Positions 3,663 to 42,900 of a stretch of DNA of 63,738 nt are shown here, piece by piece. The notes below the pieces were generated by a model. It ran no database searches, had not been told where the DNA came from, and worked only from the letters and a program-made list of their open reading frames with translations. Numbering within the stretch: position 1 is the stretch's first letter; every line of letters starts with the position of its first letter. The position numbers and the translations under genes were made by a program. The DNA comes from an uncultured Bacillota bacterium. Its GTDB lineage: Bacteria; Bacillota_I; Bacilli_A; Izemoplasmatales; Hujiaoplasmataceae. The DNA lies in NCBI GenBank assembly GCA_937862575.1, contig CALMFM010000155.1, positions 1 to 63,738 of the forward strand, read 5' to 3'.

Positions 3663-5852
3663 TTATTTTTTCTTAAATATGCTCGAGATAATCTTCCACA
3701 ATTGAACCCAAGTATCTTTTCTAATGTAAATCATTGCTGCGCCAATTCCAACACTTGTAACTGGCAGAGTGAACGCCAATACATAAACCGTAGTGTTTAC
3801 TTTGGCCTTGACATGAATATCAAGTATCTCGATATATCCATTACTTAATTCTATATATACTTTGGTTTTCCCAAAAGCAATACCGGTAATTACTCCTTGA
3901 TTATCTACACCTAGAATTGAGGCATCATCCGTATAATATCTAATAACTGTTGCTTGCCCCAAAGTTACGTATTGATTTACATCTAAGGTTTGTTCCTCGA
4001 AAATATAAATAGTTTCAGCCTTTCGACTCAAATTGGTAATGGCATCTTCCAATAACGCTACAGCCTGAGCTACCATGTCTTCGTCGGCATTATTGTTTTC
4101 GATAACTGACATAGCATTTGCTTTTGCTGTTTCCAGAGCGCCATAAGACGAAATTGAATAATCTTCATTACGATAAATATTCGAGGAATCATAGAGGACT
4201 ATCAATTCGCTGAAGTCTGGAAGAAGAACCAACAAGTCTGGAATTGTTTGAAAATCAATTAAAACTTGAAGGGCAGCGTCGGCATTTAATTCTTTTCCGG
4301 TTATGATTGCATATAATCTGTCTAATTCCGCGTTGTATAAGTCTTGAGAGTTTTGTGTATATTCAGATAAATCCAGATTGCTATAATTCATGTGTACCAA
4401 AAGCAATTCGGTATTATCAATCAATAAATCTAGAAGCCCTAATGCATCACTTAATATTGATGCAAGGTTATCTACTGTGCTTTGAGATACATTATCGTTT
4501 GCTATCACCGAATTTACATAAAGATAAGATCCATAGGCATTTACAGCTGTGGTAAATTGTAAATATGAAGAATCGGTATATAATATCTTATTTTCATAGT
4601 AAGCTTTAATTACTAGTTGATTCAAAATCAACAACTCGCTTCTATCGGCTTTCAATATTAACAAATTTACCGATAATCCTAGATCAATCAATGCTTGGTC
4701 GGCTTCTTCCTGTGTTGAGTCATTGGCTGATATAATTTCATTTATTCTTTCCAATTCGTCCAAATATTCTGTAGCAGAATCTGGTGTATATATTGTCAAA
4801 TCGAGAGCTATGGCCGCGTCATAAGCCGCTTCCAACGCGGTTAAGTCGGCTTTAAGAATCAAAACGTCATACAACGCAGCTAAATCAATCAACGCTTGAT
4901 TAACTTCGCTTTGTGTCGCTTCGACATCATTTATAATTGCTGATATATTGGATAATCCTTGAGCAAATTCGAAAGATGATGCAGAAGTATATAAAATCCA
5001 GTTTATCGACATCGCATCGGCATAATCGTTAATCAAAGTGGTTTTGTCTGGCGCGTCTATCAATACTGCCAATACTTCGTTTAATCTGTCTTCTGCAATC
5101 GAAATTTCTTCAACAATCGCATCAATATCGTCAATTAATTGTTGCAAAGTCATGCCAATATCAACCATTAATACATTATCTATGTCTTCATACGAATCTT
5201 GAAATGCTATAAATGAACTTGGAATATAACCGGAGCCATCACCGATGTATATTGTTTCAACTTGATTCTTGATATCCAAAAGAGTGGTTTTGTCTCCCCT
5301 TAATACTAATAAGTCCGCCGCAAGATCAATATCATCATTCAAATCAGCTATCGCCTGGTCCCCGGCAGTTGGGTTATCAAGTATTGCCTCTATTCTGTCC
5401 ATTTCGCTATTATAAAGCGTTTGAGAATCAGAAGTATATAAATCCATATCTATTGCTTTTGCAATGAAAAAATTAGCATGTGTAGAATTATATGTATCAC
5501 TTGTAATTAATCCGGCAATAGCCGTATTTATGTCACTAGTCATATTGTCAACATCTAATTGTGTCGCCAATGGATCATCAATCATTGCTTGAATACCCGC
5601 GGTTCCGCCCAAAGCCGTTATTGCATCAGAAAACGCTTGATATGACGCCTCTTCATAATAAGGATCCAAAGGCGTGGTATCTTGCAAGGTTATTATTGCT
5701 TGAACTTCGTTATAAGCTGTTGTTAATGCTGTTTTATCAGAATCAGCTGAAACTATAAATCCAAAAAAGCCTACATATACCATGAAGGCTAACGATGTGT
5801 ATAGAAGTAGTTTACCAAGTTTTTTCATCTTTCTCCTATCTCTTGTCAGCAA
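3663..5852 (-). CDS. Large secreted/anchored surface protein with multiple FIVAR-like helical repeats, C-terminal Big-like domain and TM
   Basis: Signal peptide; recurrent motif YT.dS...Y..El.rI..Ii....t...ad.Ai.dL; C-terminal YFEEQ..LDVNQYVTLG..GVITGIAFGKTKVYIE-type beta domain and TM helix. Confidence 0.75.
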   Translation of the reverse strand: MLTRDRRKMKKLGKLLLYTSLAFMVYVGFFGFIVSADSDKTALTTAYNEVQAIITLQDTTPLDPYYEEASYQAFSDAITALGGTAGIQAMIDDPLATQLDVDNMTSDINTAIAGLITSDTYNSTHANFFIAKAIDMDLYTSDSQTLYNSEMDRIEAILDNPTAGDQAIADLNDDIDLAADLLVLRGDKTTLLDIKNQVETIYIGDGSGYIPSSFIAFQDSYEDIDNVLMVDIGMTLQQLIDDIDAIVEEISIAEDRLNEVLAVLIDAPDKTTLINDYADAMSINWILYTSASSFEFAQGLSNISAIINDVEATQSEVNQALIDLAALYDVLILKADLTALEAAYDAAIALDLTIYTPDSATEYLDELERINEIISANDSTQEEADQALIDLGLSVNLLILKADRSELLILNQLVIKAYYENKILYTDSSYLQFTTAVNAYGSYLYVNSVIANDNVSQSTVDNLASILSDALGLLDLLIDNTELLLVHMNYSNLDLSEYTQNSQDLYNAELDRLYAIITGKELNADAALQVLIDFQTIPDLLVLLPDFSELIVLYDSSNIYRNEDYSISSYGALETAKANAMSVIENNNADEDMVAQAVALLEDAITNLSRKAETIYIFEEQTLDVNQYVTLGQATVIRYYTDDASILGVDNQGVITGIAFGKTKVYIELSNGYIEILDIHVKAKVNTTVYVLAFTLPVTSVGIGAAMIYIRKDTWVQLWKIISSIFKKK

Positions 5853-7137
5853 ATACCCTATCGTAGATAATTTGGATGTTTCGCTTGTAGTAATTCAAAT
5901 CAAATAATTCAGTTAATTCAGTTTCATTGAAAATAGCTTTCATATTATAATCGTTTTTGATTATTTCCATAAAATCTTTGTTTTCTTCATAACAATAATT
6001 AGCCAACGGCTGAATTATATCATAGGATTCTTCTCTGGACATCCCTTTATCAACCATTGCTGTAAGAATTCTTTGTGAGAATATCACTCCGTTGGTGAGG
6101 TAGATATTCTTTTTCATGTTTTCGGGATAAACAACAAGATTTTTTATTACATCCAAATATCTATTGAACATATAATCAATCAGTGTTGTTGCATCAGGAA
6201 TAATTATTCTCTCAACTGAAGAATGCGATATGTCTCTTTCGTGCCATAAAGCTATATTTTCAAAAGCCGGAGTCAAATATCCCCTTAAAACTCTTGCGAT
6301 GCCACAAATGTTTTCACTTACGATGGGATTCATTTTGTGTGGCATGGCTGAAGAACCTTTTTGATTTTTGGAAAAAGGTTCTCTGACTTCGTTGACTTCC
6401 GTTCTTTGAAGGTTTCTGACTTCAAACGCTAACTTTTCTAGAGTGGAAGCTAACAACACTAAAGAACTAATGTAATTTGCGTGCCGATCTCTTTGCAAGG
6501 TTTGCGTGGAAATATTTACTGTAGATAAACCTAAATTGTAACAGATGTATTCTTCGACTTCTGGATTTGTGAAAGCATAGTTGCCAACCGCTCCGCTGAT
6601 TTTACCAACTTCAATTTCTGAAGCAGCTTCTAAAAACCTTTTATAGTTGCGTCTTAATTCATCATAATATAAAACAAACTTCAATCCAAAAACGGTTATA
6701 TCTGCATGAATGCCATGAGTTCTGCCAATGCAGAAAGTATCTTTATATTTCATTGCCATGGCTTTCAAAACATCTAAAAATGCAAAAACGTCTTGTTTTA
6801 TCACTTCATTGGCTCTTTTTATCAAAACCCCCATGGCGGTATCTACAACATCAGTAGAAGTCAATCCATAATGTATGTAGCGTTTTTCCTCACCTAAAGA
6901 TAAGGATAAGGCTCTTGTAAAAGCAATCACGTCATGTTTGTATTCTTTTTCCAGTTCATAGATTTTCTTAATGTCATATTTTGCGTTTTCTTCAATTGAT
7001 TTTAAATCCTTTGAACTAACTATGCCTAATTTATTCAAGGCTTCGATATTTAGCAACTCAATTTGCATAAAAGCATCAAACCTTGACTTGTCAGACCAAA
7101 TATCTTTCATGATTGAACGAGAATAACGATCTATCAT
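5836..7137 (-). CDS. purB: Adenylosuccinate lyase
   Basis: MIDRYSRSIMKDIWSDKSRFDAFMQIE, HYGLTSTDVVDTA, SSAMPHKMNPIVSENI fumarase/ASL signature. Confidence 0.97.
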   Translation of the reverse strand: MIDRYSRSIMKDIWSDKSRFDAFMQIELLNIEALNKLGIVSSKDLKSIEENAKYDIKKIYELEKEYKHDVIAFTRALSLSLGEEKRYIHYGLTSTDVVDTAMGVLIKRANEVIKQDVFAFLDVLKAMAMKYKDTFCIGRTHGIHADITVFGLKFVLYYDELRRNYKRFLEAASEIEVGKISGAVGNYAFTNPEVEEYICYNLGLSTVNISTQTLQRDRHANYISSLVLLASTLEKLAFEVRNLQRTEVNEVREPFSKNQKGSSAMPHKMNPIVSENICGIARVLRGYLTPAFENIALWHERDISHSSVERIIIPDATTLIDYMFNRYLDVIKNLVVYPENMKKNIYLTNGVIFSQRILTAMVDKGMSREESYDIIQPLANYCYEENKDFMEIIKNDYNMKAIFNETELTELFDLNYYKRNIQIIYDRVFADKR

Positions 7138-7991
7138 CTTTTTCCTCCTTCAATGTTTCTATAACAAATAAGGGTGTTTTCTAGAAGACACGTGATTGTC
7201 ATTGGTCCAACCCCTCCCGGAACGGGTGTGATATACCCGGCAATCTTCTTTGCATCTTCGTAATCCACATCTCCTCTTAAGGTATCATCTACTCTATTGA
7301 TTCCAACGTCGATTACAACGGCTCCTGGTTTAATATATGAGGAATCAACCATATTAGCTCTGCCTATAGCAACAATTAAAATGTCGGCTTGTTTTGATAT
7401 GGATTTTATATCTTGTGTTTTTGAATGGCATATTGTAACGGTGGCATTTCTTTTTAACATTAAAGCCGCCATCGGTTTACCTACTATCTGGCTTCTTCCT
7501 ATGATGACACAATGTTTACCAAATGCATCGATGTCATATTCGTCAAGTATTCTTGTAATCCCTAACGGCGTGCAAGGAACCATAGATTCTTGTCCCTTAT
7601 TCAATTTTGCTATATTTTCATTACAAAATCCATCAACGTCTTTTCTCGGATCAATTAAATTAATAACTCGATCCTCGTTGATGTGTTTTGGAATTGGTAA
7701 CTGTAAAAGAATTCCATGTACGGAGTCATCGTTATTCAATTCGTTTATTATGTCTATTAATTCGTTTTCAGATATGTCTTCAGTTCTTTTAATAACGGTG
7801 GATTTAATCCCCGCTTTTATGCAAGCTTTTTCTTTTGAACTTACATAATATTTACTTGCTGGGTTATCACCAACAAGAACAACCGCTAAATGCGGAATCT
7901 TATTAAATTCTTCGATTAGTTCTTTTGTTGCCACGCGAATGTCTTCTCTTATTTTTGAAGCTAATTCTTTACCATCTAGTATTTTTGCCAT
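7134..7991 (-). CDS. folD: Bifunctional methylenetetrahydrofolate dehydrogenase/cyclohydrolase
   Basis: VVLVGDNPASKYYVSSKEKACIKAGI, GILLQLPIP, PVPGGVGPMTITCLLENT. Confidence 0.97.
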   Translation of the reverse strand: MAKILDGKELASKIREDIRVATKELIEEFNKIPHLAVVLVGDNPASKYYVSSKEKACIKAGIKSTVIKRTEDISENELIDIINELNNDDSVHGILLQLPIPKHINEDRVINLIDPRKDVDGFCNENIAKLNKGQESMVPCTPLGITRILDEYDIDAFGKHCVIIGRSQIVGKPMAALMLKRNATVTICHSKTQDIKSISKQADILIVAIGRANMVDSSYIKPGAVVIDVGINRVDDTLRGDVDYEDAKKIAGYITPVPGGVGPMTITCLLENTLICYRNIEGGKR

Positions 7992-7993
7992 AA

Positions 7994-8521
7994 TTATTTA
8001 TCCTTTTCAAAAATATATTGATCAAGAATTTCTCCAAAATAAACTGTATGGTTTGCGTTGTTAGAAGAAGCTTCATTGTAATATTTGGTTTTAACAGCTC
8101 CAGGGACTTTATCTTGATCCAAAGTTTGTTTGTATATAACTTTGCATTCATAATGTATTTTGGCCTCGCCAATTATAGGGGTGTCTATTGTCCTGCCAAT
8201 AACCGGCGTCAAATTACAATAATCAAATTTGTTAATTTCCCTAAGCGATTTTGTTCCACAGATTTTTATTGCTCCTTGAAGATTGTCTCCCATCGGAACG
8301 CTGACCGTGAACTCTCCGCTTGATTCAATTAAGTCATAAGTTGCCCTTGAGTCTCTGACCAATACCATAAAAACGGGACGGCCCCATACGATATTTATAC
8401 CACCCCAACCAATAATCATTGTATTGATTATATCTCCCTTTTTTGTTGTTAAAAAAAGTCCCGGGATCAACTTTTCAAGTACTACATTTCCATATTCAAA
8501 TACGCCTATTTCTTTATACAT
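7994..8521 (-). CDS. Flavin reductase family protein
   Basis: Flavin-reductase-like fold with TMIIGWGGINIVWGRPVFMVLVRDSRATYDLIESSGEFTVSVP; start chosen at MYKEIG. Confidence 0.75.
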   Translation of the reverse strand: MYKEIGVFEYGNVVLEKLIPGLFLTTKKGDIINTMIIGWGGINIVWGRPVFMVLVRDSRATYDLIESSGEFTVSVPMGDNLQGAIKICGTKSLREINKFDYCNLTPVIGRTIDTPIIGEAKIHYECKVIYKQTLDQDKVPGAVKTKYYNEASSNNANHTVYFGEILDQYIFEKDK

Positions 8522-8675
8522 AATTATCACCTGTCCAAGGACAATTATATCACAAATGAGACAATCAAAAAAGTTGCCTTTTCATATATTAGAATATAAT
8601 ATATCAAAAAATAGTAATATTAACAAAAAATATTATTTTGTGATACAATATATAAACATAAAAAGAGGTGTTCTT

Positions 8676-9527
8676 ATGAAAATAGGAATTGTTGGCCTTG
8701 GTTTGATCGGTGGGACGATTGCTAAAGCCCTTAATACAAAGCATAATATCTCGGCGTATGACATTTCAAATGAATCGTTATCATATGCTCTTAAAAACCA
8801 AATAATACATAAAGCATATACTAATTTACATCTTTTTCTTCAGGAAAATGAGGTCATATACCTATGTCTATATCCTAATTCTCTAATAAATTTTATTTTT
8901 GAAAACAAGGTTTTTATCCCTAAAAATAGCGTTATTATAGAAATTTCAGGAATCAAACAGCATATAATATCAAGCGTGGAACAGCTTGGTGAGCTAGAAT
9001 TTGAAATGGTCTATTCTCATCCTGTGGCAGGCAGAGAAAAATCTGGTGTATGGTTCTCTGACAAAGATATTTTTTCAAAGGGAAACTATGTAATCACCCC
9101 TACAAAAAATAATAACGAGACTACATTAAAACTTGCTGAAAAACTTGCGAAGGAAATGGGTTTTAATAACATTTCATATGTATCGCCAAAAGAGCATGAT
9201 GATATAATTGCTTATACTTCACAACTTACTCACGTTTTGAGTATATCGCTAGTTAACGCGCTTTCTACAAATCTAGACACATCCAGATTTATAGGTGATT
9301 CATATAGAGATTTAACTAGAATATCTATGATAAATGACACTCTTTGGTCCGAGTTGTTTTTATATAATAGGGATGCCTTGTTAGAACAAATCAACCACTT
9401 CAGAGTTCAATTAGACCATATTCAGCATGCTTTATTAATGAACGATAAAGAAAATCTAATGAATTTAATGCAATCATCCACACAAATAAGGCAGTCAATA
9501 GAGGAGGGAAAAACACATGATCGTTGA
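8676..9527 (+). CDS. tyrA: Prephenate dehydrogenase
   Basis: MKIGIVGLGLIGGTIAKAL, YSHPVAGREKSGV, DSYRDLTRIS; start moved from the ORF-track 8424 to the ATG behind an aaaagaggtg SD. Confidence 0.88.
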   Translation: MKIGIVGLGLIGGTIAKALNTKHNISAYDISNESLSYALKNQIIHKAYTNLHLFLQENEVIYLCLYPNSLINFIFENKVFIPKNSVIIEISGIKQHIISSVEQLGELEFEMVYSHPVAGREKSGVWFSDKDIFSKGNYVITPTKNNNETTLKLAEKLAKEMGFNNISYVSPKEHDDIIAYTSQLTHVLSISLVNALSTNLDTSRFIGDSYRDLTRISMINDTLWSELFLYNRDALLEQINHFRVQLDHIQHALLMNDKENLMNLMQSSTQIRQSIEEGKTHDR

Positions 9528-10773
9528 TATATATCCATCAACAATTTCCGGAAGCATAACACCTCCTCCTTCAAAATCAATTTTACATCGGGCTATTATT
9601 TCTGCGTGTATGTCGAGAGGCTTGTGTAAAATTCATAACGTCATTTATTCTGATGATATCCTCGCAACCATGGATGCTTTTACCTCTTTAGGCGTAAGAT
9701 TCATTAACTACGAATCCTATGTGGAAGTAGACGCTAGACATCTCAACTTGGAACACTCCAAAGTCGAGGTAGATTGTAAGGAATCCGGTTCCACAATTCG
9801 CTTTCTAATTCCATTACTAAGCAATGATGATTTTGCCTTATTTAAGGGAAAATCCAGTCTTATTAAAAGACCAATGGACATTTATGATGAAATATTTAAA
9901 AGACATGGTTTTACATTTTATCAGGATGATAATTTCATTAAAACAAAAGGCTCTTTAACGCCTGGAAACTACGTTATTAAAGGTGATATTAGCTCACAAT
10001 TCATATCGGGATTGATGTTCAAATTACCGTTGTTAAATGCAGATTCGACGATTGAAGTTGTCGGTAATTTCGAATCCTCAGAATACGTGGATATTACCAT
10101 TGATGTTCTCAAAGCATTCGGAATCAAAATTATTAAAGACAATAATCTATTTCTCATTCCAGGAAATCAAACTTATATTGCTAATGATTACACAGTCGAA
10201 TCCGATTTCTCTCAATTAGCATTTTATGCAGTTTTAGGAATCGTGAACGCCGATTTGGTTATACATCAAATTAATCACCTGTCTTTACAGCCAGACCGAA
10301 GAATTTTAAACATTATTTCACAAATGGGCGGCCGAATTTCCTATTTTGACGATAGCATTTTGATAAAAAAATCTAAAACACATTCTAGCGTGATTGATGT
10401 TAGTCAGTGTCCTGATATAGCACCGATTATTGGATTGTTAGCCGCTTGTTCAGAAGGAGAATCGAAAATTGTAAATGCAAAAAGACTCACTATGAAAGAA
10501 TCCGATCGGTTAAAAACCACATACGAAACATTGAAGTCTTTTGGTGTGAAAGTTGTAATTGAAGACGATAGTTTAACAATCAATGGATCACCATATTTAT
10601 CTGGTAACGAATTTGATTCTTTCAACGATCATCGAATTGCTATGATGATTGCAATTGGTGCTACTGTCGCAAATGAGAAAGTAACTATAAATAATGCCGA
10701 ATCTATTAACAAGTCATATCCTAATTTCTATAAAGATTTGCAATCTCTTGGTGCTATAATAGAATACAGATAG
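9517..10773 (+). CDS. aroA: 3-phosphoshikimate 1-carboxyvinyltransferase (EPSP synthase)
   Basis: PPSKSILHRAII, ESGSTIRFLIPL, GDISSQFISGLM, KESDRLKTTYETL, DHRIAMMIAI. Confidence 0.95.
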   Translation: MIVDIYPSTISGSITPPPSKSILHRAIISACMSRGLCKIHNVIYSDDILATMDAFTSLGVRFINYESYVEVDARHLNLEHSKVEVDCKESGSTIRFLIPLLSNDDFALFKGKSSLIKRPMDIYDEIFKRHGFTFYQDDNFIKTKGSLTPGNYVIKGDISSQFISGLMFKLPLLNADSTIEVVGNFESSEYVDITIDVLKAFGIKIIKDNNLFLIPGNQTYIANDYTVESDFSQLAFYAVLGIVNADLVIHQINHLSLQPDRRILNIISQMGGRISYFDDSILIKKSKTHSSVIDVSQCPDIAPIIGLLAACSEGESKIVNAKRLTMKESDRLKTTYETLKSFGVKVVIEDDSLTINGSPYLSGNEFDSFNDHRIAMMIAIGATVANEKVTINNAESINKSYPNFYKDLQSLGAIIEYR

Positions 10774-10781
10774 GAGATAAA

Positions 10782-11777
10782 ATGAAAACCATAAACATAA
10801 AATCAAAACTCAAAGAGTATAAAGTCTATATTGATAACCATCTTTTGGATAATCTAAACGATTTTTTGGACACGGACAGATTTTATGTTATCGTTTCTGA
10901 CAACCAAATTCCTGTTCAATATATCAAGAAAGTTCAATCCGCTCTTCCAAAAAATCTTGTTATTACCTTCCCCGCCGGGGAGAATTCAAAATCGTTATCA
11001 CAATTTGAATCAATTATTTTAACACTTCAAAAAAATAATATTAAAAGAGACGCTTGTATCGTCGCCTTAGGTGGTGGCGTAACAGGAGACCTTGCGGGAT
11101 ATGTAGCGTCGGTTTACTTGCGCGGTATTGATTATATTCAAATACCTACTACTTTGCTCGCTCAAATAGATTCATCTGTCGGCGGAAAAGTTGCTATTAA
11201 TACCGTTAATGCCAAGAATTCAATTGGATCAATATATCCCCCTTCACTAGTTATAATCGATCCATCGACTCTAGACACACTCGATTCAAGACAATTTAAT
11301 AATGGTATGGCTGAAATGATTAAGTACGGAATGATTCATTCTAAAGTTCTTTTTGATGAAATACTCTTTTCGGATATCAAATCAAATATAACCCATTTTA
11401 TTTATGAATCTGTTTTAATAAAAAAATATTATATTGAGAACGACGAATTCGATACCGGCATTAGACAGAAGCTAAATTTTGGTCACACTTATGGCCATGC
11501 ATATGAAGCTTTATATAATTATGAAAAATATCTTCATGGAGAATCTGTTGCGTTGGGAATGTTAAAAGTATCTAATTTTGATGGAGTTAAAGGCCCGCTT
11601 ATAAAGGTTCTAACTAAGTATAATCTTCCAATTAAGGATGACGCTACCGATAAAGACTTGATTTCATACATAATAAATGATAAAAAGAGCACTCGAGATT
11701 CCATCAATTTAATTACGGTTAATGAGATTGGAAAGGCTGAGATTGTTAAAAAGAATATTCAGGAGGTGTTGATATGA
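10782..11777 (+). CDS. aroB: 3-dehydroquinate synthase
   Basis: ALGGGVTGDLAGYVASVYLRGIDYIQIPTTLLAQIDSSVGGKVAIN, NFGHTYGHAYE. Confidence 0.96.
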   Translation: MKTINIKSKLKEYKVYIDNHLLDNLNDFLDTDRFYVIVSDNQIPVQYIKKVQSALPKNLVITFPAGENSKSLSQFESIILTLQKNNIKRDACIVALGGGVTGDLAGYVASVYLRGIDYIQIPTTLLAQIDSSVGGKVAINTVNAKNSIGSIYPPSLVIIDPSTLDTLDSRQFNNGMAEMIKYGMIHSKVLFDEILFSDIKSNITHFIYESVLIKKYYIENDEFDTGIRQKLNFGHTYGHAYEALYNYEKYLHGESVALGMLKVSNFDGVKGPLIKVLTKYNLPIKDDATDKDLISYIINDKKSTRDSINLITVNEIGKAEIVKKNIQEVLI

Positions 11778-29698: not shown

Positions 29699-30541
29699 AT
29701 GCTTAAATTCTTTGTGGATAGCCTCCGTGTCAAGAGAATCTATAATCTTAAAGATGCAAAATGGTCTTCAGTGATATTTTATTTTCTACTATTAGTATTG
29801 ATAATCAGTTTTCCTTTGAATTTACAAATCATAAGATCTGGAGGGTGGGATTTATATGACTTCACCGCCGGAATCAGGCAACAGTACCCAGATTGGTTAC
29901 CAGATGAGTTGCCTGAAGATATAGAGATTTCTTATACTGGGATGTATTATGAAAACACTGATAATTCGGTATTTACGACGACAAATTTGGATGGCGATAA
30001 TCTTTACATAGTATTTTCTCCGTTGGCGGATTATGTTCCTAATGACAGAACACTGGTTTTTGAGGAAAATCAAATCAGTTATTATGACGAAAACGGAACA
30101 TATATGTTTTCAGCTGATTATTCTAGAGTTTCGGGAATTGTCAGGTTCTATGATTTGAAGTTGGGAACACAATCCAATGCGGTAGATAAATTCGCTTCAA
30201 TTATTGAAAATTCATTTAGCGGCTACGCTCAGTTCAAATCGATAATTCTTAACATTGTTATAAATTTAGTGATGAATATTTTGTTGGTTCTTGTGGTATC
30301 GTTCCTGTTTATTTTCATAAGAATTAAATTCCAAAAAGTTACTACTTTCTCAGATAACATCAAGATAGTCATATCTTCTATGACGCTACCAGCTTTGGTT
30401 GGTATGGCATTTGGATTCATAGGCGTAATGGAACTTAGCGCGTTCACGGTGGTCATATTTCAGTTCATGACGCCTATCATTGCGTATGTTGCAATTTATC
30501 AGGGGTCAAAAGGCAAACCGATATCCGGTAAATATTTATAA
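29699..30541 (+). CDS. DUF1189-like membrane protein (YvdJ-like, maltodextrin-locus associated)
   Basis: N-terminal FFVDSLRVKRIYNLKDAKWSSVIFYFLLLVLIISFP and C-terminal TM cluster; genomic context resembles the B. subtilis mdx/yvd locus. Confidence 0.6.
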   Translation: MLKFFVDSLRVKRIYNLKDAKWSSVIFYFLLLVLIISFPLNLQIIRSGGWDLYDFTAGIRQQYPDWLPDELPEDIEISYTGMYYENTDNSVFTTTNLDGDNLYIVFSPLADYVPNDRTLVFEENQISYYDENGTYMFSADYSRVSGIVRFYDLKLGTQSNAVDKFASIIENSFSGYAQFKSIILNIVINLVMNILLVLVVSFLFIFIRIKFQKVTTFSDNIKIVISSMTLPALVGMAFGFIGVMELSAFTVVIFQFMTPIIAYVAIYQGSKGKPISGKYL

Positions 30542-30589: not shown

Positions 30590-33415
30590 TTAGAATTTTC
30601 TTCTATATACGAAGAAGCCGACTAAGGCTAACATTCCAAAGAATATTGTTGAATATGTTAATGAATCACAAGAGCCACAACCAGTAGGTGTATCATCAAC
30701 GGGATTTACTACTACACCTTGATAAAACACTAGTGTTTCGTTTTCCAAAGCTATGAAATCCGAACCGTCTACGTATGTTTTGATGACTTCGTTAGATATT
30801 CCAGATGAATTACCAACTAAATTCCACTCACCTTCAGGTAAAGGATATTTGGCAAAATCATCTGTGTTATGAATGACTAGGATTGTGTCGAATGAATCGC
30901 CGTTTGCATAACTTGAAATAGTATAAGCAATTACTGAATCATCTTCATAATCAATGAAGTCGATCGCTGCTAAAACTTCATCTGCCGTGGTCATTCTAAA
31001 TGCAGGGTGTCCAAGTCGGAATGCAATCATTTCTTTATAATATTGATAAACTTCATAGTTTGTTTCTTGAACCATCAAATCCCATCTCAATTGGTTGGTT
31101 GAATCAGGAGATTGATAAGAATTTGAATCAAAACCACCGGATACTGCCGGTTTGGATCTCATAAATTCGGCACCGGCATGGATGAATGGAATACCTTGAG
31201 ACAAAAGCACAATTGCATTAGCTTGTTTTATCATATCTGGGATGAACTCTCTTTGAGCGGTGCTTGTAGATAATTTGATTTTGTCATAAAGAGTATTATT
31301 ATCATGTGCGGATACATAGTTGATGACTTGTGTAGGATTATTTCCCCAGAACATATTGTAAGACAAGTAACTGTCATCAATGCCAGGAAATTCAGTTCCG
31401 CCGACGATACCGTATTTGATTTTGTTAATAATTGAAGCGTTGACGTCCCATTGAACGAATCCGCCTTCGGATGCGTTGAATACAGACCCTTTAACTCCGT
31501 CTCTTATTTCATCGTTGAAAGCCGCAACACCAGGCATATCTTCGAGATTAACTTTGTTAGCTGTAAGAGTTGAAGATAGCGGAGATGTACCGCCTGTCCA
31601 AGGCTCTCCATAAACCAAAATTGTTGGATCAATTTCATGTAAAGCGGCTACAATCATGTTCATTGTGTCAACATCATGTAATGCCATAAGATCGAATCTG
31701 AATCCGGAGATATTGTATTCTGATGCCCAGAATGTAACTGAGTCGACCATGAATTTTTGCATCATTGCTCTTTCAGAAGCTGTTTCATTTCCGGTTCCAG
31801 AACCATTACTGAAAGAACCATCTGCGTTCATTCTGTAATAATATCCAGGAAGGATAAGGCTGAAATTAGAATCGGCACTTTGTCCCGTGTGATTATAAAC
31901 AACATCCATGACTATTCTCAAGTCATTTTCTGTGAAAGTCGTTACTACTTGTTTAAATTCATTGATTCTGACTGAGCCATCATATGGATTGGTTGAATAA
32001 TATCCTTCCAAAACGTTGAAGTTAAGAGGCATATATCCCCAGTTGAATTGAGAACTTGATCCGGATTCATCTACTGCGTTTCCATAATCAAAGAATGGCA
32101 ACAATTGAACGTGGGTAACTCCCATATCGATGATGTGGTCTAACCCGGTGGCTATACCACTATAAGTAGTTCCTCTTACAGTTAGTCCAAGGAATTTTCC
32201 CCTATAGGATTCATATTCTTGGTCGACTACCCAACTGTTATGAGTGGTCAAGTCGCGGACGTGCAATTCGTAGATAACTGAATCGGTATAATTTTCAATA
32301 GTATCTGGTCTTACTCCGTATTCAAAACCATCAGGATTTGTTTGTGAGAAGTCAACAATCATACCTCTGATTCCGTTAATTCCAGAACTCTTGGCATAAG
32401 GATCTATCACTTCATTGGTACTAATTCCGTTTGTAACTGTGTATGTATAATAATTCCCATGAAGATTTTCATCTACAGTTGCGGTCCAAGTACCTTTAAG
32501 GCTTTTTGTCATCTCAATGCTTTGTGTAGGTGTGTCTGTAGCGGTAGAATCTTTGGCAATCAAATATTCTGGAGTTCCGGAATCGTAGATATTTAAAATG
32601 ACGCTGCTTGCAATAGGAGCCCATAGTTTAAATTCTGTAGAATTTCCATCAACAACAGCTCCTAAATCATCACCTTCATAGAAATAAGCATCTTCAAATT
32701 GAGTAGTATCATATATTCCGTCAAAAGTAACAATATAATCTTTGATTAACCCAGAGAAATCAACCTCTAAAACATATGTTTTTGTCAAATCCACATTACT
32801 GGTCAATCTCATAGTTCCCGAATTGTAAGACAACGTGATTGACTGAGGAGCGGTAATGATGTCGTTGACTTTAAGTGTAATATCACTTTGTTCAACTATT
32901 GAAGTTAAAGTAAATTTGATTGTTTGAACGTCAGTGAAATAAGCGTTGATAACCTTGTCAGATTTATCTGGACCATCAGGATCGTCGATTGAATAACCGA
33001 TTCTTTCGTCACCTTGAACAAAATATACATGTAATTCGCCGTTTTCAACTGCGGTTGGAACAATTATGTATCGATCTTTGTCGATGTCTTTGGCTGCCCA
33101 TTCATTCAATCTTACAATGACACCAATTTGACTTACCTCAGTCATTCCGTTAGCAACCATATCGATGGTAGCGACGGCGCCCCAACTATCGGTTACAATA
33201 GTTCCGCCATCTTCGTCAAAGCCATATCCGGCGCCATTACCACCTTGCGGCCATAACCATAAATTCCACCCATCGTCATAGTCGTTATTATATCTGAAGT
33301 AATGCACAATCAACGTATCTGGGGCTGTTTCCAGCGCTTCAACGTTGTCCATGCTTATAATAGTAAATATTGCAAATGCACTAAATGTTATAAATAACAA
33401 TATTTTTTTAAGCAT
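30590..33415 (-). CDS. pulA: Secreted type I pullulanase (CBM41 + CBM48-like + GH13) with C-terminal TGCG-TM-RRK anchor
   Basis: Signal peptide; CBM41 LIVHYFRYNNDYDDGWNLWLWP; FNWGYMPLNFNVLEGYYSTNP; SGFRFDLMALHD; LVYGEPW; SAHDNNTL; tail PTGCGSCDSLTYSTIFFGMLALVGFFVYRRKF. Confidence 0.92.
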   Translation of the reverse strand: MLKKILLFITFSAFAIFTIISMDNVEALETAPDTLIVHYFRYNNDYDDGWNLWLWPQGGNGAGYGFDEDGGTIVTDSWGAVATIDMVANGMTEVSQIGVIVRLNEWAAKDIDKDRYIIVPTAVENGELHVYFVQGDERIGYSIDDPDGPDKSDKVINAYFTDVQTIKFTLTSIVEQSDITLKVNDIITAPQSITLSYNSGTMRLTSNVDLTKTYVLEVDFSGLIKDYIVTFDGIYDTTQFEDAYFYEGDDLGAVVDGNSTEFKLWAPIASSVILNIYDSGTPEYLIAKDSTATDTPTQSIEMTKSLKGTWTATVDENLHGNYYTYTVTNGISTNEVIDPYAKSSGINGIRGMIVDFSQTNPDGFEYGVRPDTIENYTDSVIYELHVRDLTTHNSWVVDQEYESYRGKFLGLTVRGTTYSGIATGLDHIIDMGVTHVQLLPFFDYGNAVDESGSSSQFNWGYMPLNFNVLEGYYSTNPYDGSVRINEFKQVVTTFTENDLRIVMDVVYNHTGQSADSNFSLILPGYYYRMNADGSFSNGSGTGNETASERAMMQKFMVDSVTFWASEYNISGFRFDLMALHDVDTMNMIVAALHEIDPTILVYGEPWTGGTSPLSSTLTANKVNLEDMPGVAAFNDEIRDGVKGSVFNASEGGFVQWDVNASIINKIKYGIVGGTEFPGIDDSYLSYNMFWGNNPTQVINYVSAHDNNTLYDKIKLSTSTAQREFIPDMIKQANAIVLLSQGIPFIHAGAEFMRSKPAVSGGFDSNSYQSPDSTNQLRWDLMVQETNYEVYQYYKEMIAFRLGHPAFRMTTADEVLAAIDFIDYEDDSVIAYTISSYANGDSFDTILVIHNTDDFAKYPLPEGEWNLVGNSSGISNEVIKTYVDGSDFIALENETLVFYQGVVVNPVDDTPTGCGSCDSLTYSTIFFGMLALVGFFVYRRKF

Positions 33416-33630: not shown

Positions 33631-36033
33631 ATGAAGAAAAAATTGTTTTTACTGTTTTTTTCTGCACTAGCTTTGCTAGGGTTCGTCTCGGTTTCGGTTG
33701 TTAACGAAGTCAAGGCCGCAGCTGCTGGCGAAGTCGTATTCCACTACCAAAAATGGTATGAAGATTATGATACTGCAGGCCTTTGGGTCTGGGGCACTGG
33801 CACAGACGGAACAGCTAATGGCGTTGAAAAAGCCGGCATCGACGATTTTGGAGCTTACTTCAACATCGCAATCGGTTCAGACGCAACATCCATGGGTGTG
33901 ATTCCTATTGCTCAGTCAATTGCGACTGATGACAGATGGAATAACAAAGACAGTTATGAAGGAATGGATCTTACGCTTGACGTAACAGCGGCAGCCGCTG
34001 GCGGAACAATGGACGTATACTTCTTTAGCGGAAGCGATACTATATTTGTAGCCGATCCAAACTATATCAACTTGTTTGTTGTTTACTTCACTGCAACAGA
34101 AGAATACGAGACAAACCTTGGTATTCATGCATGGGGTACTGACTGGTACACAGACGAAGCTTACGGCGATTGGAGTATTTGGGGAACCCCAACTACAATC
34201 TTCTCTGCTAACTTCACTACACCAGAAGGCAAACTTGGTAAACTTGGTATGGTTCAAGCCACAGGTTCAGATGCAAACTTCTTAGTTTACGCCGGTAATG
34301 ACGCAACTAAGAAAACTGGCGACGTAGCCGGTTTGTTGACAGACTTCTCTCTTGGCGATGTTACAGCAGTTTATATCGCTGGTGATGTTTACAAGGGTCT
34401 GGACAAAGTTGGTTTGTTCGCAGATTCATCATTTGCTTTCAAATTTGTTCCATTTGACAATACTGACAATGTATTGAGTGGAACATATGCTTCTAAACCA
34501 AATACAATTTTGGTTAAATTCTCTGCAGACGTTCCAGTTGCTTTCTATGACGAAACTCAAGAACCAGAACAAATCGAATATCAAGAATATGAGATCGTAG
34601 GTTATGAGTGGGTACTGAAAGAGAATCCAGTTGTACAAGACGATACAGTATATGATGCTTATGTCGCAACAGCAATTCCTGCTGGTATGGCGAGATTGGT
34701 CATTCACTATCAAAAATGGGATGGAGACTATTCTGACGTAGGTTTCTGGACTTGGGGAACTGGTACTGGCGGAGCTTCTGCTCCAGTATTGAAATCAGGC
34801 GTTGATGATTTCGGTGCCGTATTCGAACTAGATCTAGGTTTGGATGCAACTAGCGTAGGATTGATTCCTATTGCTGACAGCATCAATACAGATGATCGTT
34901 GGGGATACAAAGACTCATTCGGCGGAGCTGACATGGGTTATGATGTTACCGGAATTACAGACGGGCAACAAATCGACATTTACTTCTTCAGTGGTGGTGC
35001 CGTATTCTATACAGCAGATCCAACTAAAGCTAACGTGATCGTAATTAACATGAACACAGCTGGCGAATACGAGGAAAACCTTGGTGTTCACTGCTGGGGT
35101 TGGGATCAAGCTCCTGCTTGGGGAACTCCATATCCAATGACTCATGCTTTGACATCTCCGGATGGCGTACAAGGGCGTGGTGTTCTATTAACAGCTGACG
35201 CTGCTAATCTTGGTAGTGCTGGATTGCTGGTTTATGCTGGCGATGACGCAACTAAGAAAACTGGCGACATCAGCGGCAGCATCTTTGGTGCAGCTTCTGC
35301 TGGCGATGTATTCGTAGTTTACACTACTGTTGATGCAGACGGACATGATTACACTTTGGATAGAGTTACTTTCGTAGATCAATTGATGACTTATGAAAAA
35401 GGCGACCCAATTTGGGATTATGTGACATACTATGAAGATTCATATCCTCGCGTTGAAATCGACTTGACACCATTCTTTAGTTTATGGGATGGCGATACAG
35501 AATTAACAGACGCTATCGAAGAGTTGAACTACAACGTAGAAGATGATGCAATTACAGAATTAGTAGTTGTTTTGGCCGACGGACAAGAACTTGAAGCCGG
35601 ACACGAATATGTTTTGAAATATAACAATGGAGAAGAAGATCCATTGAAAGAACAAGTAGCTGAAATAGCAGTTGCTATCGATGAAGAAGCTCCAGTAATC
35701 ACATTCATCAGCGATCAAGAAGTAACAATCACCGCTGGCGAAGGCTGGGATTCTGAATTGTGGCCAGTTATGAGAGCTGAAGATGATCGTGATGGAAACG
35801 TTACTGACCGCATCTATGTAAAAACTGGTGACGGCACAGTAGATATGAATGAAGTTGGCGTTCACGAAGTAATTCTTACAGTATTTGACAACTGGGGCAA
35901 TGAATCAACCGCTACATTCACAATTAACGTTATAGCACCTGAGACTGGCTGCGGCGCTGCAAGCGCAAGTATTGCCGGAATCGGTCTGTTTGGAATCATT
36001 CTCTTCTTTGTAAAAAGAAAAGAATGGATTTAA
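33631..36033 (+). CDS. Surface alpha-glucan-binding protein: two CBM41-containing repeats, Ig/HYR-like C-terminal domain, TGCG-TM-KRK anchor; no catalytic domain
   Basis: Signal peptide; EVVFHYQKWYEDYDTAGLWVWGTG and RLVIHYQKWDGDYSDVGFWTWGTG repeats; tail ETGCGAASASIAGIGLFGIILFFVKRKEWI. Confidence 0.82.
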   Translation: MKKKLFLLFFSALALLGFVSVSVVNEVKAAAAGEVVFHYQKWYEDYDTAGLWVWGTGTDGTANGVEKAGIDDFGAYFNIAIGSDATSMGVIPIAQSIATDDRWNNKDSYEGMDLTLDVTAAAAGGTMDVYFFSGSDTIFVADPNYINLFVVYFTATEEYETNLGIHAWGTDWYTDEAYGDWSIWGTPTTIFSANFTTPEGKLGKLGMVQATGSDANFLVYAGNDATKKTGDVAGLLTDFSLGDVTAVYIAGDVYKGLDKVGLFADSSFAFKFVPFDNTDNVLSGTYASKPNTILVKFSADVPVAFYDETQEPEQIEYQEYEIVGYEWVLKENPVVQDDTVYDAYVATAIPAGMARLVIHYQKWDGDYSDVGFWTWGTGTGGASAPVLKSGVDDFGAVFELDLGLDATSVGLIPIADSINTDDRWGYKDSFGGADMGYDVTGITDGQQIDIYFFSGGAVFYTADPTKANVIVINMNTAGEYEENLGVHCWGWDQAPAWGTPYPMTHALTSPDGVQGRGVLLTADAANLGSAGLLVYAGDDATKKTGDISGSIFGAASAGDVFVVYTTVDADGHDYTLDRVTFVDQLMTYEKGDPIWDYVTYYEDSYPRVEIDLTPFFSLWDGDTELTDAIEELNYNVEDDAITELVVVLADGQELEAGHEYVLKYNNGEEDPLKEQVAEIAVAIDEEAPVITFISDQEVTITAGEGWDSELWPVMRAEDDRDGNVTDRIYVKTGDGTVDMNEVGVHEVILTVFDNWGNESTATFTINVIAPETGCGAASASIAGIGLFGIILFFVKRKEWI
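33730..34450 (+). repeat. Intragenic repeat unit 1 (CBM41 + 'NLGIHAWGTDW' module)
   Basis: Shares with unit 2 HYQKW.(E/G)DY, I(D)DFGA, ATS.G.IPIA.SI.TDDRW..KDS, DATKKTGD; boundaries approximate. Confidence 0.75.
34693..35380 (+). repeat. Intragenic repeat unit 2 (CBM41 + 'NLGVHCWGWDQ' module)
   Basis: Same conserved blocks as unit 1; boundaries approximate. Confidence 0.75.
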
Positions 36034-36055
36034 TGGGTGAAAGGAGAATATGATT

Positions 36056-37354
36056 ATGAAAAAGTTATTAACTATACTAATATCAGTGTTCGCACTTTTC
36101 GCTTTAGTTAGTTGTACAGAAGAATTGCAACCAGATATCGTTGACTTCAGTTTAAGTCAAGAAAAAGTCACAACAATAACCGTTTGGATGGATGACACTG
36201 ATGGTGTCTTCATGGATCAATTGATTCCGGCATTCAACGCTGTTTATCCGAATATCGAAGTTAACTTCCAACACATGGGAGCTTTGGATTCACGTGACAG
36301 ACTCAAAACATACGGTCTATCTGGAAATGGTGCAGACGTGTTTATGTTCCCACATGACCACTTGTCATTAGCCATTCTTGAGGATTTGGTATACGAGTTA
36401 CCTAACGACCTTTATGAAGAATTGAATGATACGATTCTTGATGTCGCAATGGATATTGCCACAGCAGGATCAAGAGGATCAGCAAACCCTACATTGTATG
36501 CCGTTCCATTATCAATCGAATCAATCTTTATTATGTATAACAAAGACCTTATTTCTGACGAAGAAGTAGCCGCTTTGGAAACATGGCAAGATGTTATTGA
36601 ATATTCAGCCACATTCGCTACTGAAAATCCTGGAAAACAATTATTGACTACCAATTCACATTGGGCAGACAACTATTATCTAGAAGCTTTCTATTCAGCA
36701 TTTGGTTGGAGACCTCATGGAACAGATGGTACTGATGGTACTTTGGTTGGGTTCGAGAGCACAAACCTTACAAATGCTTTGGAATGGATTTATAACGATC
36801 TGAAACCGATAGTAACCGGTAACGACTCTTATAACTCTGTTGGTACATCAGCATTTGAACAAGGTCAAGCTGCGATGATTATTACTGGACCTTGGTCAAT
36901 CACAACTTTCGAAGGCAAATTAGATAATCTTGGAGCAACAACTCTTCCTGGCTTTGCCGAAGATACTCCTGGAGTTGTCGACGAAGTAAGAACATTTGCA
37001 GGATCACAGATGGTTGCAGTTTACAAATATTCACCGAATAAAGAAGCAGCAATCAGCTTTGTATCATTCTTGGCAACAGAAGAAGCTCAACAACTTCTTT
37101 ACACAACTTCAAATGACTGTCCAGCTCTGAAAGACCTGAGCAATATCGAAGGAATTTCAACTGACGTTTACATGCAAGTTATGTTGCAACAATTACAAAC
37201 TTCAATTCCAATGCCTACCATCGCTGAAGTCACATATTACTGGGCTGCAGCACAAACAATGGTAGTCAACATTTGGGATAGTGCCGCTGACATTGTTACA
37301 GAACAAAAGAAAGCCGAAGCATCATTCCTTGCTTCAAAAGCATTGGCCCAATAA
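36056..37354 (+). CDS. Maltodextrin-type ABC transporter substrate-binding lipoprotein
   Basis: Lipobox FALVSCTE; family 1 extracellular solute-binding protein pattern (TITVWMDDTDG..., GQAAMIITGPWSITTFE, FAGSQMVAVYKYSPNKEAAISFVSFLATEEAQ). Confidence 0.9.
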   Translation: MKKLLTILISVFALFALVSCTEELQPDIVDFSLSQEKVTTITVWMDDTDGVFMDQLIPAFNAVYPNIEVNFQHMGALDSRDRLKTYGLSGNGADVFMFPHDHLSLAILEDLVYELPNDLYEELNDTILDVAMDIATAGSRGSANPTLYAVPLSIESIFIMYNKDLISDEEVAALETWQDVIEYSATFATENPGKQLLTTNSHWADNYYLEAFYSAFGWRPHGTDGTDGTLVGFESTNLTNALEWIYNDLKPIVTGNDSYNSVGTSAFEQGQAAMIITGPWSITTFEGKLDNLGATTLPGFAEDTPGVVDEVRTFAGSQMVAVYKYSPNKEAAISFVSFLATEEAQQLLYTTSNDCPALKDLSNIEGISTDVYMQVMLQQLQTSIPMPTIAEVTYYWAAAQTMVVNIWDSAADIVTEQKKAEASFLASKALAQ

Positions 37355-41356: not shown

Positions 41357-42157
41357 ATGTACCCATATTTATTACCTGATGTCTTCGGATATAATGTGCC
41401 AATGTATGATGTTTTAATCATGATTGGTATATTTGCCATGTTAGTATACACCGCCAGAAGATTTGAAAAAAACGATGGTTATACAAGAAAACAAACCAAT
41501 AGAATATTGTTATTGATTGTTGCCAGTTTGCTATTTGCATTGTTGACATCATATCTTTTTGACGGCTTGTTTCATACAATCGCCGAAGGAGAACCAACTT
41601 TTGGTTCGGTTACTTTCATCGGTGGATTGATTGGTGGTCTTGTTGCTTTTGTAATATTAATGAAGTATTTTTATAAAGAAGAAAACAAAGATATGAGAAA
41701 AATACTGAACACCGTAATAACCGGAGTAGTTTTAGCTCATGCTTTTGGAAGAATAGGTTGTTTTGCGGCCGGGTGTTGTTTTGGAATACCTACCGATTCT
41801 TTCTTGGGAGTGGTATTTCCTCAAGGACATGCCGCTGAAGCTTTTCCTGGAATCGCAATATTTCCTACTCAACTATTCGAATCCGCATTCTTGTTTATAC
41901 TGTTTTTCCTATTAAATAAGGTTAAGTCATTTAAATATATCGAATTGGAAGTATATTTAGTGGCTTATGGCACATGGAGATTCTTGGTGGAATTCATTCG
42001 TGGAGATGATCGCGGGACTTTATTCGGGTTCATTACAACACAATACAATGTATTTCCAACTCCTTCTCAATACCTCAGTTTGTTAATGATAATTTTCGGA
42101 GTTTATCTAATTATAAAGAGAAAAAAAGCAGATAAAAAAGCAGAGGCGATATTATAA
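41357..42157 (+). CDS. lgt: Prolipoprotein diacylglyceryl transferase
   Basis: FGRIGCFAAGCCFG, GTWRFLVEFIRGDDRG, TQYLSL-type C-terminus (TPSQYLSLLMI). Confidence 0.92.
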   Translation: MYPYLLPDVFGYNVPMYDVLIMIGIFAMLVYTARRFEKNDGYTRKQTNRILLLIVASLLFALLTSYLFDGLFHTIAEGEPTFGSVTFIGGLIGGLVAFVILMKYFYKEENKDMRKILNTVITGVVLAHAFGRIGCFAAGCCFGIPTDSFLGVVFPQGHAAEAFPGIAIFPTQLFESAFLFILFFLLNKVKSFKYIELEVYLVAYGTWRFLVEFIRGDDRGTLFGFITTQYNVFPTPSQYLSLLMIIFGVYLIIKRKKADKKAEAIL

Positions 42158-42900
42158 TGTATGTCTTGATTACTGGAGCCAGTTCTGGAATCGGAAAAGA
42201 ACTTGCTCATCTATATGCCAAAAATGGCGACAACCTAATACTGGTCGCTAGAAGCCAAGAAAAACTGACCGAACTAGCCAAAGATTTAAAACCTAACGGA
42301 ATTGAAGTTCTCGTTAAACCTTATGATCTTTCATCATTAGATAACTGTAAAAAGTTGATAGATGAGATCAAAGGATATGAAATCAGGGTATTTATTAACA
42401 ATGCAGGGTATGGTAATCTTGGTTTTTTCCAAGACACCGATCTCGATTTGGAAATAAATATGCTCAATCTTAACATTTTAGCCGTTCATGTTCTAACAAA
42501 ACTGTATCTTCAGAACTTTACCGCTGGAGATGTTGTAAACATTAGTTCAATGGCTGCCTTTTTGCCAACACCAACTTTTGCGACATATGCCGCATCTAAA
42601 TCATATGTCAATTATCTTTCAAGAGCTGTCGATTACGAATTAAGAAGAAGAAAAAGCTCGATGAGAGTTTTGACAGTTAATCCTGGACCAGTTAAAACTA
42701 ATTTCAATGAACGCGCCAAGGCCAATATCAACAGAGGAATGGATGTAAAGAAATGCGCGCAAAAGATTTATAAAGGCATAAAGAAAAGAAAAGCTTTTAT
42801 AATCCCGGGATTTCAAATGAAATTAGCCTATTTATTTACAAAAATCACCCCAATTAACTGGCTGTTGAAGGCATCATATCACATTCAACAGAGCAAATAA
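42157..42900 (+). CDS. Short-chain dehydrogenase/reductase family protein
   Basis: VLITGASSGIGKELAHLYA, INNAGYGN, ISSMAAF...YAASKSYV. Confidence 0.9.
   Translation: MYVLITGASSGIGKELAHLYAKNGDNLILVARSQEKLTELAKDLKPNGIEVLVKPYDLSSLDNCKKLIDEIKGYEIRVFINNAGYGNLGFFQDTDLDLEINMLNLNILAVHVLTKLYLQNFTAGDVVNISSMAAFLPTPTFATYAASKSYVNYLSRAVDYELRRRKSSMRVLTVNPGPVKTNFNERAKANINRGMDVKKCAQKIYKGIKKRKAFIIPGFQMKLAYLFTKITPINWLLKASYHIQQSK

Follow-up and report, generated by a model that had tools for sequence, protein, structure and literature searches.

The pullulanase locus and its C-terminal tails

We analyzed a stretch of 63,738 nucleotides (the window) from an uncultured bacterium of the order Izemoplasmatales, whose genome comprises 1.9 Mb and is 87.6% complete; Candidatus Izemoplasmatales and Izimaplasma are named relatives carrying the same genes. 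Here, a CBM41 surface protein and a type I pullulanase are transcribed divergently (Table 1). The CBM41 protein begins with the signal peptide MKKKLFLLFFSALALLGFVSVSVVNEVKA, matches the PUD model PF03714 (E 4.5e-27), and scores slightly under the cut-off of PF16403. Its C-terminus reads APETGCGAASASIAGIGLFGIILFFVKRKEWI, and that of the pullulanase DTPTGCGSCDSLTYSTIFFGMLALVGFFVYRRKF. A sequence-only reading of this DNA had proposed that the CBM41 protein ends in a tripartite tail of a TGCG motif, a TM helix, and a basic terminus, that the tail recurs in the pullulanase, and that it resembles signals of the MYXO-CTERM type. The tail is present where it was placed in both proteins; its layout, its recurrence, and the invariance of the Cys are confirmed, and the likeness is apt. 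Cys913 and Cys916 are the only cysteines of the pullulanase and both lie within its tail; the CBM41 protein has only Cys488 and the tail Cys774.

A gene for a second, divergent Lgt (lgt2) lies 5.3 kb downstream of the CBM41 gene. In other genomes of the same family, the gene after lgt2 often encodes a different enzyme, with the SDR gene sometimes one gene further on. Elsewhere in the window, a FIVAR/Big_2-like surface protein (3663-5852, minus strand) with a C-terminal helix and a KKK tail but no Cys represents a plain TM-anchored protein. A DUF1189 membrane protein (29699-30541) is encoded between an alpha-amylase lipoprotein and the pullulanase, a position that is conserved in relatives (L077, L078, and L088).

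Table 1. Positions of the tagged proteins, their tails, and neighboring genes in the window
Feature	Position	Strand	Remarks
Type I pullulanase, 941 aa	30590..33415	-	Signal peptide and TGC-CTERM tag; TIGR02104 670.9 bits vs cut-off 504.5
TGC-CTERM tag, pullulanase	30590..30694	-	PTGCGSC, helix, RRKF
CBM41 (PUD) surface protein, 800 aa	33631..36033	+	Signal peptide, two PUD domains, Ig-like domain, TGC-CTERM tag
TGC-CTERM tag, CBM41 protein	35941..36033	+	E-TGCG, hydrophobic helix, KRKEWI; Cys in 10/10 orthologues
Maltodextrin-type ABC substrate-binding lipoprotein	36050..37354	+	Ordinary N-terminal lipobox; neighbor, outside the tag system
Lgt2, divergent prolipoprotein diacylglyceryl transferase paralogue, 266 aa	41357..42157	+	GRIGCFAAGCCFG motif; proposed lipid transferase of the tag
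SDR oxidoreductase	42157..42900	+	Start overlaps the end of lgt2

Recurrence and conservation of the TGC tag

The sequence-only reading had made its case depend on further copies of the tail and on a conserved Cys, and both were found. Two more tagged proteins bring the genome of the window to four copies, one ending in PAETGCGATTGNIPGIEIIGIFALLGTAFFFIRRQH (L014) and one with OmpL47-type domains ending in EPETGCFIFNLFSSIGMGLIAVGSFIITRKRV (L155). Relatives have up to five copies, and one Clostridia genome gave 11 matches. All 10 CBM41 orthologues, the one from the window included, keep [TS]GC at 53-100% identity over the protein. Across the order, the tag is carried by pullulanases and other large secreted proteins that are unrelated to one another. 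Order-wide profile searches combined with reading of the tails yielded 37 distinct tails from three families of the order, in which G-C is invariant, the preceding residue is usually T or S, and the end is formed by R or K. Because the residue after the Cys varies, a search for TGCG tails only undercounted the tag. Judged from these sequences, recurrence and invariance are far beyond chance. A Cys motif, a helix, and a basic tail on several secreted proteins per genome are the hallmarks of a Cys-type CTERM system, and we conclude that the tag is a real Cys-type C-terminal anchor signal for which there is no curated model. A second Cys occurs in some tails (SCDS, SSGACN) and would suit a role of the tag Cys in disulfide bonding or in metal binding by a stalk instead of in anchoring chemistry. 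We regard such a role as very improbable, since most tails have a single Cys that sits immediately before the helix and always after G, with no matched partner.

None of the NCBIfam CTERM models covers the TGC tails. The MYXO-CTERM models TIGR03901 and TIGR03382 each matched one tail of 20 (best E 0.004-0.006), short of the score over the model cut-off that marks a member, and no match was reported for member 1 of the set. The generic LPXTG model TIGR01167 weakly matched 16 of the 20 tails, among them member 1, whose 17.3 bits exceed the cut-off of 15.9. However, sortase (PF04203) was absent from all 61 genomes of relatives while control genomes were positive, which rules it out as the processor of the tag and sets the tails apart from LPXTG/sortase systems, defined by a sortase in the genome. 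Consistent with this search, the lineage of the window's genome has been reported to have lost peptidoglycan and sortases (PMC10868615). The rhomboid-like partner envisaged in the sequence-only reading did not materialize: PF01694 found no rhomboid in any of the five genomes of the genus, and rhomboids show no correlation with the tag (p 0.79), so that they were rejected as processors. With no rhomboid protease in the genome, the tag is no GlyGly-CTERM/rhombosortase system either.

The weak LPXTG matches bring up another reading, in which the tail is a plain C-terminal anchor that descends from LPXTG-type proteins and T-G-C is a relic left after the loss of sortase and wall, with the Cys unmodified. 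It would account for the APETG-like residues, for the TIGR01167 scores, including that of member 1 above the cut-off, and for an order without sortase and, by PMC10868615, without peptidoglycan. We nevertheless consider it unlikely. A relic would be expected to retain L-P-x-T-G and lose the Cys, whereas these tails lack the first L, vary at P, and share an invariant G-C in unrelated proteins. Plain TM tails without Cys do occur, but in genomes without Lgt2, and the link of the tag to Lgt2 would be left unexplained.

Lgt2 and CPBP2 as candidate partners of the tag

Our candidate for lipidating the Cys-type signal is Lgt2, which has the motif GCxxxGCC where canonical Lgt has GNxxNxE. Lgt2 scores 115 bits against PF01790 (cut-off 24.9) and belongs to the Lgt family by this score and its predicted fold, but it falls outside the canonical equivalog TIGR00544 (69.5 vs 118.9 bits). 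The NCBIfam model NF058595, named 'lipo-invert', gave a subthreshold match (12.1 vs 37 bits), and a literature search found no paper on that model. An AlphaFold model of Lgt2 (pLDDT 85) predicts an Lgt fold, with E. coli Lgt (5azb) as its sole significant PDB match in Foldseek (E 2.8e-7, TM 0.67). The genome of the window also encodes a canonical Lgt (G000:C13). Among 61 genomes, Lgt is present in all and canonical in nearly all, and the second, divergent copy is found in a subset. Lgt2 retains equivalents of R143, G154, R239, and E243 and has I, L, or Y for H103, C for N146, and C-C for E151-L152; the numbering is that of E. coli Lgt, in which these residues are important. The lost equivalents of H103, N146, and E151 could mean that the chemistry of Lgt2 is different or absent. 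Alternatively, the changes could reflect another acceptor geometry, with the helix of the tag leaving the Cys in the opposite direction. A second type of Lgt2 has a SHOCT-like C-terminal extension, RELFEMKEKGIITEDEFIKKK, and no adjacent CPBP (L221:4565-5575 in G034, L225 in G042, and L251). In G023, a protein ending in KKTSSCFSFGGTAIFVQLAGVFALVWFFRKH is encoded 54 bp upstream of lgt2 (L214:1786-3324) and has a variant of the tag without G before the Cys, the two genes forming a pair of substrate and lgt2.

Acyltransferases had been among the partners suggested from sequence, and this partner appears to be a divergent Lgt paralogue, which co-occurs with the tag and lies downstream in the same window; lipidation or cleavage of the Cys itself is what we infer. 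Lgt2 was called in 33 of 90 genomes by an order-wide profile search (at least 150 bits), and the tag in 28 of 90 (E <= 1e-3). Tag and Lgt2 were found together in 26 genomes, the tag only in 2, Lgt2 only in 7, and neither in 55 (p 4e-14, Fisher, relatedness ignored). The tags had been collected ahead of the noticing of Lgt2, so the tag set was not selected by Lgt2. The association also holds within families (f1, p 6e-7; f3, p 1e-6; Fisher, relatedness ignored). Concordance within genera is a better guard against relatedness than these p-values: in genus g1 the tag is present in three genomes with Lgt2 and in neither of two without it, and presence and absence of the two also co-vary within g6, g10, g11, g14, and g19. 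The two tag-positive genomes without detected Lgt2 are G068 and G076, the latter 53% complete, and a weaker Lgt2-like match (114-147 bits) exists in five further genomes. G037 was counted as tag-positive with TGF instead of TGC; without it the counts become 25, 2, 8, and 55 (p 3e-13). Its pullulanase (L172:622-3537) has the tail STGFFSSTNF..., in which the tag Cys is now Phe, and this genome retains Lgt2 and CPBP2, the protease described below. Among the PUD-type pullulanases, a Cys tag is present in 10 of 13 genomes with Lgt2 vs none of five without it (p 0.007, a small sample). The three Lgt2-positive exceptions are G006, G037, and G056; the pullulanases of the Lgt2-negative genomes end in a plain helix without Cys (G026, G048, G049, and G058) or have no tail (G021). 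This genome-by-genome tracking of the tag with a second Lgt suggests a role for the tag as a membrane anchor that carries a lipid.

In family f1, lgt2 lies inside a malEFG cluster next to tagged proteins, and this physical linkage could account for some of the f1 correlation. The same arrangement favors the view that other enzymes, such as the canonical Lgt and another CPBP, process the tag and that Lgt2 correlates by way of co-imported surface-glycan gene clusters. Two published points add to it: in E. coli, which has no myxosortase of its own, MrtX is reported to cleave a MYXO-CTERM substrate, and the ordinary Lgt has been named as the leading candidate (PMC11980579). Still, processing by such enzymes appears distinctly unlikely to us, because canonical Lgt is present in nearly every genome, tagged or untagged, and because the correlation persists when tagged genes linked to lgt2 are left out (18, 2, 15, and 55 genomes, p 3e-8). 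Moreover, the correlation holds in families f2 and f3, where the gene paired with lgt2 is that of CPBP2 rather than any mal gene.

CPBP2 is the candidate protease to accompany Lgt2 in our preferred reading. Generic CPBP (PF02517) is uninformative because it is present in 61 of 61 genomes, and CPBP2 is the only subfamily that correlates: it occurs in 20 genomes, all of them with Lgt2, and is separated from the next match by a clear score gap (243 vs 78 bits). CPBP2 lies directly beside lgt2 in all 16 f2 and f3 genomes that have it, often with overlapping genes; no CPBP was found within about 1.5 kb of canonical Lgt at 30 loci. As expected of a CPBP glutamic intramembrane protease, CPBP2 scores over the PF02517 cut-off and retains EExxxR-, FxxxH-, and HxxxN-like motifs, with ED..Q and HxxxD variants in f2 members. 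It fails the myxosortase cut-offs (MrtX, MrtC, MrtJ, MrtS, and Mrt_core), with 28 vs 75 bits for MrtJ, 21 vs 100 for Mrt_core, and 19-27 vs 130 for MrtS, and its fold search against the PDB gave SagB-SpdC as the sole, weak match. Within the family of the window, CPBP2 is present in 4 of 16 Lgt2-positive genomes, away from lgt2, and missing from 12; the genome of the window has Lgt2 and lacks CPBP2. Therefore, the cleavage step is supported for the wider system and unsupported for the window's genome. The CPBP partner that the sequence-only reading had suggested has a counterpart in one strongly linked subfamily outside the genus, but not in generic CPBP, which is found everywhere, nor in the genome of the window.

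When GTDB genomes were scanned with the Lgt2 profile, Lgt2 was found to adjoin a CPBP in Clostridia and Bacilli (L259, L260, L261, L262, L264, L278, and L301) and in an Acholeplasmataceae-labelled MAG (L247). In L264 (Clostridia), a tagged protein (7022-9889), Lgt2 (9938-10747), and a CPBP (10651-11499) are consecutive, and the 11 tag matches of this genome include EEKKSGCGSFIGGGIVVILSVLGSAWISKRK. Six of 7 genomes with an Lgt2-adjacent CPBP gave tags, compared with 5 of 42 others. A tree of 100 Lgts unites all CPBP-adjacent and Izemoplasmatales Lgt2 sequences in one clade (57 rows, support 100/100), and 10 of 27 searched genomes inside this clade have tags vs 0 of 17 outside. GCC-type Lgts also occur outside the clade, in Acidobacteriota, Bacteroidota, Lachnospiraceae, and Myxococcota (L276, L287, L312, L324, L295, and others). 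No tags were found with those of Acidobacteriota, Bacteroidota, and Lachnospiraceae, and Myxococcota contributed one such Lgt (L295).

Proposed mechanism and related systems

From the observed tag, its conservation and recurrence, and the co-occurrence and linkage of tag, Lgt2, and CPBP2, we infer a scheme for topology, lipidation, the lipid, and the cleavage and its position. A tagged protein would be exported by Sec via its N-terminal signal peptide, and its C-terminal helix would arrest in the membrane so that [TS]-G-C faces outward and the basic tail stays inside. Lgt2 would transfer a lipid, probably diacylglyceryl, to the tag Cys. In lineages with CPBP2, the helix would then be removed distal to the Cys to leave a C-terminal lipoprotein, mirroring Lgt/LspA processing and following the same logic as CAAX/Rce1 and the MYXO-CTERM model. 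Without CPBP2, as in the window's genome, a tagged protein may retain the helix along with the lipid, or cleavage may fall to another CPBP. By analogy with known systems, we judge it fairly probable that the tag is a dedicated C-terminal anchoring signal, with Lgt2 lipidating its Cys and CPBP2, where present, removing the helix. We would give about an even chance to the fuller proposal of a complete Bacillota C-terminal lipoprotein pathway, the inverse of Lgt/LspA, in which a dedicated GCxxxGCC Lgt lipidates an internal tag Cys and a CPBP removes the helix.

With MYXO-CTERM and its myxosortases MrtX and MrtC (and with JDVT-CTERM/MrtJ and Synerg-CTERM/MrtS), the TGC tag has in common the make-up of the signal (invariant Cys, helix, basic tail), its occurrence on surface proteins with a signal peptide, and a processor of the CPBP family, here the candidate CPBP2. 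The published MYXO-CTERM model involves Sec export, helix arrest, lipidation of the Cys, and a CPBP cut distal to it; the CPBP protease is proven for Cys-type tags, whereas the acyl-transferase that goes with it 'remains unidentified' and Lgt is the leading guess (PMC11980579). The TGC tag differs in its motif ([TS]GC, no GCGC), in tails and CPBP2 scoring under every curated cut-off reported for MYXO, JDVT, Synerg, and Mrt, and in having a linked dedicated Lgt paralogue where the transferase of Myxococcus is stated to be unidentified. Its hosts, unlike those of MYXO-CTERM, are wall-less or monoderm Bacillota, which to our knowledge have neither T2SS nor an outer membrane. The TGC tag would work like MYXO-CTERM and yet is no member of it by curated models; the dedicated Lgt paralogue is its strong new feature.

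The N-terminal Lgt/LspA pathway would share with the proposed one the Lgt fold (5azb), a Cys at the outer membrane face, and proteolysis beside the lipidated Cys. However, the TGC tag is C-terminal with inverted topology, C-x4-CC of Lgt2 replaces N146, E151, and L152, and the linked protease is a CPBP and not LspA. The CAAX/Rce1 system likewise has a CPBP/Rce1-type protease, thought to cut off residues C-terminal to a lipidated Cys, but the TGC-tag system would be extracytoplasmic, would remove a whole TM helix, and would use an Lgt-like transferase and no prenyltransferase. LPXTG/sortase systems have a tripartite C-terminal signal and a generic model that matches marginally; they differ from TGC-tag genomes (0 of 61 with a sortase) and tails, which have no L-P and an invariant Cys after TG.

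Lgt2 provides a concrete candidate gene for the lipid transferase that is missing from related tag systems, a specific Lgt paralogue whose phylogenetic profile ties it to the tag and which in other lineages is linked, as in an operon, to a CPBP and a substrate. If this proves true, Lgt2 would, as far as the literature shows, be the first lipid transferase to be linked genetically to a Cys-type CTERM system of any kind. The automatic names 'LPXTG' and 'Lgt' can mislead for TGC-tagged proteins and Lgt2. For the organisms themselves, the system suggests how bacteria without a wall or sortase could keep starch-degrading and other enzymes on their surface.
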